Of a stretch of 64,000 nt of DNA, positions 44,682 through 49,620 are shown one piece after another. The notes under the pieces are model-generated. The model did not search any database, was not told where the DNA came from, and was given only the letters and a program-made list of their open reading frames with translations. A program made the translations under genes and the position numbers. Within the stretch, counting starts at the first letter, position 1; each line of letters starts with the position of its first letter. Origin of the DNA: Halobacteriovorax marinus (GTDB lineage: Bacteria; Bdellovibrionota; Bacteriovoracia; Bacteriovoracales; Bacteriovoracaceae); NCBI GenBank assembly GCA_002163155.1, contig MAAO01000006.1:744001-808000 (forward strand), given 5' to 3'.

Positions 44682-45116
44682 CTAACTGGCTTTCTTTGTC
44701 ATTTTCTTTGTTACTTTCTTAGATGCTTTCTTGACATCAACGCTCGTCATTTTCTCGATGAGAATTTTTAGAAGCTCACGTTTAAAAGGCTTTTGAATGA
44801 GTGTCACATTGGGCAGAGTATCTAGTCCATATTTGTATTTATCCATTTCTCCTGTCATGAGAAGAATGGGTGTTTCAGAAAATTTTATTATTTCTTGGGA
44901 GAGTCTAATTCCATCTTTTCTTGGCATCATTAAATCTGAAATAATAGCTGAGAAGTTCTGTCTTCTGGCCTTTTGCGAAGCTTCCATACCATCTATCGCT
45001 GTGACAACTCCATAACCTTGATCGCGCAGATAATCGGCCAAGAGTTCTCTATACTCTTCGTTATCTTCAACTAGCAGAATCATTTTCTTTTCTTTTTCCC
45101 AGGAATTCTTACTCAT
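44682..45116 (-). CDS. Response regulator with lysine-rich C-terminal tail
   Basis: 144 residues. Receiver: ILLVEDNEEYRELL, phospho-acceptor in AIISDLMMPRKDG, TPILLMTGE and LIQKPFKREL. The last 20 residues (SVDVKKASKKVTKKMTKKAS) are lysine/threonine/serine-rich like an AlgP- or histone-type tail, so it may contact DNA. Cotranscribed with the receiver gene at 45134. Confidence 0.82.
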   Translation of the reverse strand: MSKNSWEKEKKMILLVEDNEEYRELLADYLRDQGYGVVTAIDGMEASQKARRQNFSAIISDLMMPRKDGIRLSQEIIKFSETPILLMTGEMDKYKYGLDTLPNVTLIQKPFKRELLKILIEKMTSVDVKKASKKVTKKMTKKAS

Positions 45117-45133
45117 TATCGCCTCATAGTTTG

Positions 45134-45538
45134 TTAAGCACTTATATTTTTTGATTTCTTATATTCTGAAATGAGTTTACTGACCAATAAAGGTATAATT
45201 TCTGGTTTAAAAGGTTTTGGCAGCAGCATTACATTCTTTAAATTCTTAAGTCTTATTTCGAAATTTTCTAATTCTCCTGTTATTAAGAGAACCGGTGTTG
45301 TATCCATGGAGATAATTTCATTTGTTAACTTCACTCCATCTTTCTTAGGTAAATTTAGATCAGTAATTATGAGCGCGAAGTCTTGATTCTTCATTTTTAA
45401 AGTTGCCTCTATACCGTCTTTAGCCATGACCACGTTATAACCACCGTGCTCTAAGCTATGAGCGAGAATATCTCTGATCTCTTGGTTATCATCCACGATG
45501 AGAATATAATCCTGTTCGCTCTGTTTTACAGTGAGCAT
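45134..45538 (-). CDS. Single-domain response regulator, paralogue of the neighbour
   Basis: 134 residues; ILIVDDNQEIRDILAHS, phospho-acceptor in ALIITDLNLPKKDG, TPVLLITGELENF and LLPKPFKPE. Very similar to the protein at 44682, so the two arose by tandem duplication, but it lacks the lysine tail (ends SEYKKSKNISA). Confidence 0.83.
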   Translation of the reverse strand: MLTVKQSEQDYILIVDDNQEIRDILAHSLEHGGYNVVMAKDGIEATLKMKNQDFALIITDLNLPKKDGVKLTNEIISMDTTPVLLITGELENFEIRLKNLKNVMLLPKPFKPEIIPLLVSKLISEYKKSKNISA

Positions 45539-45661: not shown

Positions 45662-46300
45662 CTAGAGGCGATCATTTAACCATAGTCTTAATGCCATTAT
45701 TTCGTCGATACAGATTTCATGGTCCATGGTGTACTCGTGCCAACTTATCTCAAGACCTTGAGATTTTAGAAGTTTGACCTGAGAATCTACATCTTCAAAT
45801 TCGATCGCTTGGTCTTGATGACCGTGAGCTATAAAGAGGGGTGTCGATTGGTGATGAGCTTTTGCCTGTGCATCCATGTCTTCTAAATAGATTCTTGGAC
45901 TCAAACAAATAATTCCCGCAAAATTTCGCTCCCAGCTTAGAAAGCTGTGAAGTGCAATACAACCTCCCTGAGAAAAACCAGCAATAAAGATATCTTGATC
46001 TTGATAACCCTGATCGTTGAGCTCACTGATGAGCTTGGAGAGGGATTGGATGGAGTTTCTAATCCCAGTGATGGGATTACCTGGTGGAATATCGTACCAA
46101 GAGAAACCGAAGTAGTAGGGCTTAGGCGCATTGATTAAGAGGTAATCCAGGCCAGTAATATTTATCTCCTGCGCAAATCCCACAAAAGAGGATTTATGGT
46201 CTCCAAGTCCATGCATAACGATCATGATTTTAGTGGAGCTTTTAGGTCCATTAAGTTTGGCAGGCAAAAAAGTACTATCGAAGTGTTTTGAAGAAATCAT
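45662..46300 (-). CDS. Phospholipase/carboxylesterase-type alpha/beta hydrolase
   Basis: 212 residues, cytoplasmic. Nucleophile S110 in GFSQGG, Asp163 in HGHQDQAIEF and His194 in MDHEICID give the triad. IMIVMHGLGDH is the oxyanion-side motif. The family (YtpA/EstB-like) hydrolyses short-chain esters or lysophospholipids. Confidence 0.85.
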   Translation of the reverse strand: MISSKHFDSTFLPAKLNGPKSSTKIMIVMHGLGDHKSSFVGFAQEINITGLDYLLINAPKPYYFGFSWYDIPPGNPITGIRNSIQSLSKLISELNDQGYQDQDIFIAGFSQGGCIALHSFLSWERNFAGIICLSPRIYLEDMDAQAKAHHQSTPLFIAHGHQDQAIEFEDVDSQVKLLKSQGLEISWHEYTMDHEICIDEIMALRLWLNDRL

Positions 46301-46398
46301 CTCACTTTTCTATCAGGATGGGCGAAAAGATACAAGTAAGGTTTAGCGTAAAGCTTGCCAGTGAGAGCAATTGCCTCATAGCGTTAAAAACAGAAATT

Positions 46399-46404
46399 AG
46401 TTAT
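46399..46404 (+). promoter_or_regulatory. -10 box of the L25 gene
   Basis: A perfect TATAAT at about 46399-46404, roughly 50 bp before the L25 start. No good -35 lies 16-18 bp upstream. Confidence 0.4.
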
Positions 46405-46454
46405 AATAATTTTGTATCCAATATTAGGATCAAAAAAGTCACGGAGGTACTTAT

Positions 46455-47069
46455 ATGTATGAACTATTAAAAACTCAATTTAGAGAAGAACCTGTTAAAG
46501 CTCTTAGAAAAGAAGGGTACGTTCCAGGTGTGGTATATGGAAAAGGTATGGAGTCTGTGAACTTTAAAGTTCAATCTAACTCAGTAGATAAGTTCCTTAG
46601 CCATTCAGGAAAAGTTTTTGAAATTGATGTTGCAGGAAAAGGGAAGCACCTTGTTTCTCTAGATAATGTTCAATGGGATAGCATGGGAGATCATATGCTA
46701 CATATCTCATTTCATAAAATTTCTGCTAACGAGAAAACAACTGTTACACTTCCAATTCACTTTGAAGGAACTTGTGCTGGTTCAAAAGCCGGTGGAATCG
46801 TTCAACACGTTCTTAATGAAGTAGAAGTAAAAGGAATGCCTGGTGATATGCCAGAATTCATTACAGTTGATATCTCTGAACTAGATATTCACGGTCACTT
46901 TGCTCTAAAAGATATTCAAGCACCAAAAGGTCTTGAGTGGGCGCATGATGTAGAAGCAAACGTAGTTTCTTGTCATCCTCCTAAAGTAGAAGTTGAAGTA
47001 GAAGAAGTTGCTGAAGTTGTAGAAGCTGTTACTGAAGAAGTAGTAGCTGAAGATAAAGAAGCTGCATAA
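46455..47069 (+). CDS. rplY: 50S ribosomal protein L25/Ctc
   Basis: 204 residues, the long (CTC) form. N-terminal L25 domain: EPVKALRKEGYVPGVVYGKGM, SKVFEIDVAGKGKHLVSLDNVQWDS-type sequence and HISFHKI; then the TL5 C-terminal beta domain from about 95. It binds 5S rRNA. The last 32 residues are acidic, with repeats of VE/EV, common in long L25 proteins. CGGAGG precedes the ATG. Expressed alone, with an intrinsic terminator right after. Confidence 0.9.
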   Translation: MYELLKTQFREEPVKALRKEGYVPGVVYGKGMESVNFKVQSNSVDKFLSHSGKVFEIDVAGKGKHLVSLDNVQWDSMGDHMLHISFHKISANEKTTVTLPIHFEGTCAGSKAGGIVQHVLNEVEVKGMPGDMPEFITVDISELDIHGHFALKDIQAPKGLEWAHDVEANVVSCHPPKVEVEVEEVAEVVEAVTEEVVAEDKEAA

Positions 47070-47073
47070 TTCA

Positions 47074-48528
47074 ATTAATTTTTTAAATAAATGGCCCAAG
47101 AATTTCTTTCTTGGGCTTTTTTTATTCACCCTTTGTAATCAATTTATTTTCGCTGCCAGTAAGTCTCAAACGGGCTTTAGTTGGGTTCCTGATCCTAGTA
47201 GGGAGCATTACGGAAGTTGTTATGAATATGATTTAGAAACTGGTGGTCAAAAATTTCAAAAAAAAGTTTCAAAGAGTAAATGCCGTCCTAAACTTGTTAA
47301 GAATATTTGGATCCCTAGCTCTTCTGGAGTGGGTGGCAAGTGTTATGAAGTTGATAGAGATACCGGTGGTTCTAACTACTCAAGAATAACTTCTGCTCGT
47401 AACTGTTCTTCAAAAAAAGCTAGCTACATTTGGAAACAAACAGGTGAGATTCAAGGAGAGTGTTATGAACACAGTGGTGAGAGTTATAAAGTAAAAGTTG
47501 AAAAAAGTAAGTGTGCCTTTGGAGGTATTCTCCATCACTTCTTACCAAGGAAGAGTGGTTGGGGTGGTCGATGTTACGCTATCGCTGAAGATGGTGGTCC
47601 AGCGGCTTATATAGAAAGTGTCAAAATAGAAAAATGTAAACCTGAGAATACGACGTTTATTTTAAATCAAGCTCGAGGTAACTTACAGGGTGAATGTTTT
47701 GAAGTTGATGCTGATAGTGGAAGAGGAAGTTATTCCAAAAGTGTTAAAAGAGATAAATGTTTAGCTAAGAAGGAAGCTCGTTATTCTTGGAGAAAAGACC
47801 AGTCCGGCCTCAGTGGAAAATGTTTAGAAGTTAAAGAGTCAACACAGGGCCTTGCTGCGCTAAAGGAAGTGACCTATAAGAAGTGTATTGATTTTGAAAC
47901 AACGTTTACTTTTAAAAGAGTAGATCGCTTATCAGGACTTTGTTTAATTATTGATAAAGTAAGTCTTGGAGAAGTCTTTTCAAGGGTCGTTTCCAAGAGG
48001 AATTGTCTAAAGCAAGCGGGAGTAACTGAGAATACCCTGCTACAAAAGAAAAATGGAAAGTATGATTGTTTTCAAGTAGATACTAAGACAGAGGGCAATC
48101 TCTTTATAGATAAAGCTCCTAGTTCCGATTGCATGGAAAAACTCTCAAAGCCCAGATGGGTAAGTGATGAAACGGGTTGGGATGGAAAGTGTATGGCGAA
48201 AATTAGAGTTGCCGAGAAGATTGTTGAGAAATCAGTTTCTAAATCAAAGTGTCGACCTGATGATGTCTTTATCATGTGGCATAATTTAAGTAAATTAAAT
48301 GGTCAGTGTTATGAAGTGCATGGGAAATATGGAAGTGAACAATATGCAGTGATTATTGAAATGAGAAAATGTAAACCGAAAAATTTAAAGACTATCTTCT
48401 ATAGAGCGCCTAAGGCATTGAGTGGAAATTGCTATATTGTTGACGTTAAGACAGGTGGTGAAAAATACAATAGGTTGATTGGTACAAGAAAATGTAAAGA
48501 GAAACTCATGACAGTTCCTCTTAAGTAA
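47074..48528 (+). CDS. Secreted protein of about eleven two-Cys repeats (GxCYEVD...KC)
   Basis: From 47092 the frame encodes KWPKNFFLGLFLFTL, then QFIFAASK, a clear signal peptide, followed directly by the repeats; the first in-frame GTG is only at 47329, inside repeat 2. There is no ATG, GTG or TTG between 47092 and 47329. An ATT at 47074 is the nearest candidate, otherwise a frameshift at the T7 tract would join the ATG at 47091. Each repeat is about 38-41 residues: G-x-C-(Y/F/L)-E-V-D...TGG-x-x-Y...K-C-x-P. Repeats look surface-exposed and disulfide-bonded; function unknown. Confidence 0.7.
   Translation: MNFLNKWPKNFFLGLFLFTLCNQFIFAASKSQTGFSWVPDPSREHYGSCYEYDLETGGQKFQKKVSKSKCRPKLVKNIWIPSSSGVGGKCYEVDRDTGGSNYSRITSARNCSSKKASYIWKQTGEIQGECYEHSGESYKVKVEKSKCAFGGILHHFLPRKSGWGGRCYAIAEDGGPAAYIESVKIEKCKPENTTFILNQARGNLQGECFEVDADSGRGSYSKSVKRDKCLAKKEARYSWRKDQSGLSGKCLEVKESTQGLAALKEVTYKKCIDFETTFTFKRVDRLSGLCLIIDKVSLGEVFSRVVSKRNCLKQAGVTENTLLQKKNGKYDCFQVDTKTEGNLFIDKAPSSDCMEKLSKPRWVSDETGWDGKCMAKIRVAEKIVEKSVSKSKCRPDDVFIMWHNLSKLNGQCYEVHGKYGSEQYAVIIEMRKCKPKNLKTIFYRAPKALSGNCYIVDVKTGGEKYNRLIGTRKCKEKLMTVPLK
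47094..47123 (+). terminator. Intrinsic terminator of the L25 gene
   Basis: GCCCAAGAA (47094-47102) and TTCTTGGGC (47108-47116) are 9-bp arms, then seven T residues. In the next gene's reading frame the same bases encode the start of a signal peptide. Confidence 0.85.
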
Positions 48529-49059
48529 TTAGATTCCAATTGCTTGTTGCAGTGGAGCCTTATTGTAGGTAAAGAGTTCTGTTAAATAAGCTGTCTTATA
48601 TTGTAGATAGTGAGAAGATCCTGGGATTACTGGATTCATAATTGATCCCTTCACCACGTAACTCTCTTTCGATATTATTTCAGAATCATGATCTCTATTT
48701 AAGCTACAGTGTCCTAGTTCATGAAAAATCATTACTTCTCTCTGGTGTACACTCGCTGAATTCCACCAACTCTGTTTGATAATAACTTCTTTTGTACCAT
48801 CACTATAAGTATTGCAGACACCATCAAAGCTAGTGTTCTCTGTATCACCAAAATTAATAGGGACATCACCAATAACAAATCCTGGTTGATTTAGGTAGGT
48901 TTTGGCGTAGCTAGTAAAACTTTGCGCATAAGATTTAAAAGTAGGGTCACTAATGGCAAATTGCCGAGAGCCATCTTTTTGTTGAATATGCTTTTGTTTT
49001 TTCAGCCCACAGCTGGCAAAAATTAAAGTCATAAATAGAATAGTCACTAATTTGTGCAT
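48529..49059 (-). CDS. Lipoprotein with HExxH zinc-peptidase motif
   Basis: 176 residues from the ATG at 49059. The N-terminus MHKLVTILFMTLIFASCGLK is a lipoprotein signal (C17). MIFHELGHCSLNRDHDSEII carries the zinc HExxH motif and a further HD; the segment resembles M10/M12-like or DUF-type metalloproteases, not firmly placed. Its stop abuts that of the Cys-repeat gene. Confidence 0.72.
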   Translation of the reverse strand: MHKLVTILFMTLIFASCGLKKQKHIQQKDGSRQFAISDPTFKSYAQSFTSYAKTYLNQPGFVIGDVPINFGDTENTSFDGVCNTYSDGTKEVIIKQSWWNSASVHQREVMIFHELGHCSLNRDHDSEIISKESYVVKGSIMNPVIPGSSHYLQYKTAYLTELFTYNKAPLQQAIGI

Positions 49060-49239
49060 ATATTCCCCTTGGTGCACGCACATTTATTAAAGCAAGTCTC
49101 ATACCGTTTTAATTTAAGTAAAATTAGGTGGTTACTGGGCATTTATTGTAGAAAAAAGTGACATTTTGTAAAGTTGTCTTCTTTTTGATCAGTTTTTATT
49201 GCTATAATAGGTGAATAGTTTTTATGAGAGAGAAGAAAT

Positions 49240-49620
49240 ATGTCTATGAAGAAAATTTTAATTGTTGATGATGAACCTGATATTCGTTTGATTTTAAAAG
49301 ATCACTTTGAAGAGTTTGGTTATAAGGTGACTGAGGCAGATAACGGTGTCACAGCTTTGAAGAAATTCTTAAAAGGTTCTTTCGATGTAGTCATCACCGA
49401 CATCAAAATGCCAGAGATGAATGGCCTAGAGTTTTCAAGTAAGATTCGAGAAACAGACTCTGAAGTTCCTATTTATTTAGTTACAGCTTTTAGTGAGTAT
49501 ACAGAAAAAGATATAATAGCAATTGGCGCTGAAGCGATCATTTTTAAACCTTTTGATTTAAGTGAAGTCGTTGATGTTGTAGACAAGAGAGTACGAGGAT
49601 TATCTAATGAGAAGTCTTGA
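49240..49620 (+). CDS. Single-domain response regulator
   Basis: 126 residues. ILIVDDEPDIRLIL, phospho-acceptor in VVITDIKMPEMNG (about D54), TAFSEY and FKPFDLSEV are complete receiver motifs. A TATAAT box lies at 49203-49208. Its 3' end overlaps the DUF962 gene by 14 bp. Confidence 0.85.
   Translation: MSMKKILIVDDEPDIRLILKDHFEEFGYKVTEADNGVTALKKFLKGSFDVVITDIKMPEMNGLEFSSKIRETDSEVPIYLVTAFSEYTEKDIIAIGAEAIIFKPFDLSEVVDVVDKRVRGLSNEKS

Follow-up and report, generated by a model that had tools for sequence, protein, structure and literature searches.

Results

Layout of the locus

The window analysed here, a stretch of 64,000 nucleotides from Halobacteriovorax marinus (contig MAAO01000006.1, positions 744,001 to 808,000), comes from a member of a family of predatory bacteria. 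It carries the gene for ribosomal protein bL25, which scored 113.7 bits against NCBIfam TIGR00731 (cut-off 73.1), followed by the reading frame of a putative secreted protein (Table 1). Listed from stop to stop, this frame runs from 47047 to 48528, the preceding in-frame TAG being at 47044-47046; it lies in the +1 frame relative to L25 and remains open across the L25 stop codon and the terminator hairpin behind it. The original prediction had the frame open, with a signal peptide, from 47092; the open frame and the signal peptide both stand, but the opening lies earlier, inside L25. It had also reported that no ATG, GTG or TTG precedes 47329 in this frame, which we confirmed, the first such codon being the GTG at that position. 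Between the upstream TAG and the hydrophobic core, the only conceivable starts are CTG 47047, ATA 47053, CTG 47062 and ATT 47074.

Table 1. Features of the L25 locus and the overlapping secreted-protein frame (positions in the window)
Feature	Position	Strand	Basis or remark
bL25 ribosomal protein gene, 204 aa, upstream partner	46455..47069	+	ORF list; NCBIfam TIGR00731
23-nt stretch shared by the L25 3' end and the secreted-protein frame (+1)	47047..47069	+	stop-to-stop frame; relatives
CTG, preferred candidate start codon, shared with sister species G046	47047..47049	+	relatives, tree; weak Shine-Dalgarno here (-0.7)
Second candidate start (CTG), five bases upstream of the L25 stop codon region	47062..47064	+	CAG in G046
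ATT, start candidate of the original prediction	47074..47076	+	2/5 genus genomes; TTT in sister species
Putative signal peptide of uncertain start, with n-region, hydrophobic core and FAA ahead of SKS	47047..47157	+	by inspection: translation, hydropathy, low-confidence model helix
L25 intrinsic-terminator hairpin, codes part of the putative signal peptide (WPKNFFLG region)	47093..47117	+	motif search, RNA fold, relatives
Terminator T7 tract, codes part of the hydrophobic core	47117..47123	+	sequence
Mature protein, Cys-pair repeats (GxCYEVDxxTxG...KC)	47158..48525	+	alignment, model
Stop codon of the secreted-protein gene	48526-48528	+	

The convergent neighbour at 48529-49083 on the minus strand appears by eye to code for a small lipoprotein-like protein with an HELGH motif like that of zinc proteases. 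The L25 region is also flanked by three small genes that look by eye like single-domain response regulators (44682-45538 on the minus strand, 49240-49620 on the plus strand).

The terminator hairpin lies within coding bases

The hairpin reads GGCCCAAGAA-TTTCT-TTCTTGGGCT and is followed by the T run, all of it within coding bases, as the original prediction of a signal peptide coded through the L25 terminator had it. RNA folding of 47093-47117 gave the expected hairpin. It has 10 pairs (5 of them GC), a T7 tract and a dG of -15.5, and so shows the GC-rich stem and T tract of an intrinsic (Rho-independent) terminator; it is the sole terminator-like site on the plus strand within 46000-49500. L25 was matched in 63 of the 129 family genomes, and the best 30 places were taken as loci; three of these (L042, L044 and L055) were left out of the terminator, hydropathy and codon-column counts. 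By one common rule, a terminator follows L25 in 26 of the 27 scored loci, the exception being L054. Terminators and hydropathy were accordingly scored in 26 loci (6 with the gene and 20 controls), while codon columns were compared in all 27 (6 with the gene and 21 controls). Because terminators follow L25 so regularly, the hairpin is L25's own, and it is the secreted-protein gene that has come to run through it. In the six gene-bearing genomes, the terminators are no weaker than in the controls (dG of -15.5 to -18.9 versus -9.8 to -19.6).

The encoded protein

The N terminus of the frame is basic and then hydrophobic, and a Cys-repeat protein follows up to 48528. The acidic L25 tail, read in +1, gives the lysine-rich n-region. 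A basic n-region followed by a hydrophobic core is the pattern of a Sec signal peptide, and the protein is probably exported. The long members of the family share the Cys-pair repeats in the alignment. An AlphaFold model built from a 5-sequence alignment (pLDDT 82.9, pTM 0.52) consists mostly of beta strands and short helices, with a helix at 18-36 modelled at low confidence. Pfam held no family for the protein, NCBIfam gave a chance match only (E 0.24), and a search of PDB sequences with profile A2 found none; Foldseek with the model returned query TM-scores of 0.06-0.13 among the 50 matches listed, which we took as no fold match. Two size classes occur in the repeat family, a long one with open frames of about 460-545 codons and one of half that length (about 250-295), which suggests that a block of repeats was duplicated.

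Conservation of the arrangement

Relatives of the secreted protein were found in 23 of the 129 family genomes, including all five of the window's genus; a search of genome contigs with an alignment as query gave 7 relatives, and one with a single sequence as query gave no match. Each of the five genus genomes (that of the window species and those of its sisters G043, G044, G045 and G046), as well as G119 from another genus, has the gene immediately behind L25 and in its +1 frame, which stays open across the L25 stop, the spacer and the hairpin, and the signal peptide is coded through the terminator. Such a recurrence goes beyond chance. The GGCCC of the hairpin stands 23 nt past the L25 stop in 5/5 genus genomes, the stem of G044 and G045 having one extra G ahead of it; in control genera without the gene, this spacing differs by 1-15 nt in all nine within-genus pairs (L25 identity 0.70-0.85). 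Likewise, the distance from WPK/GPK to a conserved FSW is the same in four of the genus genomes and shorter by one codon in G046. Within the frame, the best 11-residue hydropathy is 2.0-2.78 in the six gene-bearing loci (2.53 in the window) versus -1.7 to 1.92 in the 20 controls. In the controls, the +1 spacer frame meets a stop in columns 0-8 in 5/21 cases and is open in 16/21. Since most control loci are open too, openness of the spacer alone is weak evidence, and it is the conserved protein and the fixed spacing that carry weight. One stem pair swaps between A-U and U-A with pairing retained, in a set of five sequences for which shuffles were not decisive; the hairpin and the protein code appear to be kept together.

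A protein tree of twelve long family members, ten of which make up the displayed alignment, places the six genomes with the L25 layout on one side of a branch (support 84/79). Within it, the window species and G046, whose proteins are 38% identical, group together at 85/89, below the program's starred level; supports are thus moderate, and G119 sits on a long branch. With the same layout in the genus genomes and in G119, a sequencing artefact is unlikely, and the sister species' retention of the layout makes this look like a real, if unusual, gene arrangement rather than an error. In particular, a corrected T-tract length yielding a normal ATG start, named beforehand as a possible refutation, is improbable given four other assemblies with the same in-frame layout, among them G046, which also has no ATG, GTG or TTG.

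The start codon

Codon columns were numbered from the codon that contains the end of the L25 stop. Several relatives have a standard start codon inside L25: an ATG at column -6 in G044 and at column -7 in G119, a TTG at column -9 together with an ATG further upstream in G043, and a TTG at column -9 in G045, which has no CTG at columns -12 to -2. The window species and G046 have no ATG, GTG or TTG, and the sole candidate common to both is a CTG at column -7. Shine-Dalgarno pairing, scored with a general anti-Shine-Dalgarno sequence rather than with that of this genome's 16S, is of the GAGG type for the G043 ATG (-5.8), the G045 TTG (-6.8) and the G046 CTG (-7.0), the last with GAGG at a good distance. 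The window CTG 47047 pairs more weakly, at -0.7, than the typical random position (median of 400, -2.0). This poor score fits ribosomes delivered by L25, or low expression, and would equally fit a wrong guess at CTG. A CTG in the L25 tail proves little by itself, since 14 of the 21 control tails have one somewhere at columns -12 to -2, although only 1/21 has it at -7. As the window species and G046 group in the protein tree, starting at CTG may be particular to these two. Switches to CUG are very rare, at 2 of 61,358 ancestral AUG starts in the portion of a published survey consulted here (PMC5622118). The original prediction of a frame that lacks a normal start codon is supported; comparison with close relatives places the start inside the 3' end of L25, upstream of the positions then proposed.

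Elsewhere in this genome, infC (L068) probably uses a non-AUG start, having an ATT behind GGAGGTGA and no ATG, GTG or TTG before the IF3 domain; the infC of Escherichia coli also has an AUU start. Other long members of the repeat family start in or beside the end of the upstream gene, so that a start inside the upstream gene fits the family. In G030, the hydrophobic core is preceded by a single ATG, GTG or TTG, namely a GTG lying 46 nt within the end of the upstream gene; in G034, the stop codon of the upstream gene is overlapped by a GTG, with other in-frame TTG and GTG codons present; and in G032, an ATG lies 3 nt past the upstream stop. G055, G001 and G056 have ordinary ATG starts. In G030 and G034 (L016 and L009, both on reverse strands), the gene preceding the repeat gene looks by eye like a response regulator, similar to those flanking L25 in the window; the repeat gene overlaps its 3' end and the GTG start seems to lie inside it.

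Discussion

The account that we favour, and hold to be reasonably probable, is that a real gene in the +1 frame overlaps the end of L25, starts at a non-AUG codon in the L25 tail (probably CTG) and is translationally coupled to L25, with ribosomes crossing an intact terminator. The frame, the hairpin, the conservation and the lack of a standard start are observed, while the exact start codon, the coupling, the read-through, the antitermination and the secretion are inferred. Translation would begin within the L25 tail, in this species most likely at CTG 47047, with ribosomes supplied by the translation of L25. Two pieces of L25's ending would furnish the signal peptide, the GAA-rich acidic tail giving the lysines, and the hairpin with its T tract giving the hydrophobic core. 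The mRNA would arise by read-through of the L25 terminator, at which most L25 transcripts should stop. Ribosomes finishing L25 close behind the RNA polymerase could in some cases restart in the L25 tail and cross the hairpin; a ribosome translating the overlapping frame covers the hairpin and should thereby promote transcription of the gene that it is reading. Passages of a review (PMC7858274) state both that coupled ribosomes can relieve intrinsic terminators and that such terminators stop transcription almost completely when they lie within the first 100 nt of an open reading frame. Taken with these passages, the position of the hairpin, 46 nt after CTG 47047, suggests that a freshly loaded ribosome may come too late, in which case the model requires either that L25 pass its ribosomes on or that the terminator simply leak.

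Other starts have to be weighed against CTG. Reinitiation at ATT 47074, just past the L25 stop, with an AUU as in infC, would give a signal peptide of ordinary length (MNFLNKWPKNFF...FAA); the codon is also ATT in G045, and infC in this genome appears to use ATT with a strong Shine-Dalgarno sequence (-13.6). The conserved AUU behind strong pairing that marks infC was, however, not found at ATT 47074, which has no Shine-Dalgarno sequence (-0.3) and reads TTT in G046, G043 and G044, and the relatives bearing ATG or TTG start further upstream, within L25; this candidate of the original prediction is weakened and we regard it as unlikely. Even less likely is that the start has been lost in this lineage, so that the gene is decaying or silent, or that only a non-exported form is made from GTG 47329. 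The missing standard start and Shine-Dalgarno sequence of the window species would be explained in this way, but the frame is intact to its end with the Cys columns retained, the sister G046 shares this condition while having an uninterrupted frame and a GAGG ahead of its CTG, and a start at GTG 47329 would remove the first repeat and the conserved FSW segment. The remaining start proposed beforehand, slippage in the T7 tract from the ATG at 47091, can hardly be credited, and the same goes for a sequencing error in the tract: a one-base shift from this ATG does enter the frame, but the explanation fails because no sister species has that ATG, their T tracts differ, and the frame is in any case open upstream through the hairpin.

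A start codon would be unneeded if L25 ribosomes shifted +1 near the L25 stop to give a fusion of L25, signal peptide and repeats. The +1 frame is retained in all six genomes, and a ribosome already near the RNA polymerase would cross the hairpin easily. Yet the L25 ends (GCT GCA TAA, GCT GCT TAA, GCC GCT TAA, GCA GCT TAA and GCC AGC TAA) share no shift motif by eye, some relatives have plain ATG starts, and a ribosomal protein ahead of a signal peptide would make little sense, so that we rate a frameshift as very improbable. The source of the transcript is a separate matter. The original claim that read-through, or a promoter upstream of the hairpin, is needed, and hence that expression is tied to L25, is supported by the position of the hairpin and by the relatives. 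A separate promoter inside L25, in place of read-through from L25, would be compatible with translation as we propose it and would permit regulation apart from L25, but no sigma-70-like site (9 of 12) was found on the plus strand within 46000-47091, and a transcript from it would still have to cross the hairpin; we think such a promoter rather doubtful.

As to the origin of the signal peptide, the GAA-rich L25 tail read in +1 encodes lysines in almost every scored L25 locus, and the hairpin with its T tract, read in the same frame, often gives G-P-F-x-F or similar. The parts of a signal peptide may thus have lain ready in the L25 tail and terminator, although this is suggestive only. An 11-mer hydropathy of at least 2.0 occurs in 2/8 of the terminators in the window versus 10.75% of 2000 random stretches, too few terminators to generalize from. 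Tentatively, and with well under even confidence, we propose that a secreted repeat protein captured a terminator-born signal peptide and that in the window's clade the start then drifted to non-AUG, so that the protein would be made only by L25-coupled ribosomes, which would in turn prevent the terminator from cutting short the gene's own mRNA and so make the gene self-licensing. If so, secretion of the protein would be tied to ribosome supply.

The same DNA appears to have been conserved across several species in two roles, as a terminator and as the code for a signal peptide, in a lineage that lacks a standard start codon. Gene callers limited to ATG, GTG and TTG will shorten the protein to a start at GTG 47329 and so lose its export signal. 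The locus also offers a natural setting in which to test whether ribosomes drive antitermination, and a possible path by which signal peptides originate. Our literature search, which was thin on subscription journals, turned up no paper describing a conserved signal peptide whose code runs through the terminator of the gene upstream.

Overlapping genes, rare CTG starts, intragenic terminators and neighbours attenuated by a terminator are each already known singly. In E. coli, the frd terminator precedes the ampC coding sequence, whereas here the terminator lies inside the coding sequence and would code for a signal peptide. The frd operon terminator acts as the attenuator of ampC, as stated in part of one report (PMC11838884), and in both cases the upstream operon's terminator lies in the path of the next gene's expression, whose control region overlaps the upstream end. 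With infC, the window gene would share a lasting non-AUG start, but infC has a strong Shine-Dalgarno sequence and the window gene none. Like other overlapping, translationally coupled pairs in bacteria, the gene would start within the 3' end of its upstream partner, but it differs from them in the apparent non-AUG start in two species and in the intact terminator between the partners. Finally, intrinsic terminators inside coding regions are described in portions of a report on Zymomonas (PMC7566282), and, as with the intragenic terminators relieved by following ribosomes in the review passages mentioned above (PMC7858274), translation through the hairpin could prevent termination here; unlike the intragenic terminators in those portions of the two sources, the one described here is a neighbour's conserved terminator that codes for part of the next gene in several species.
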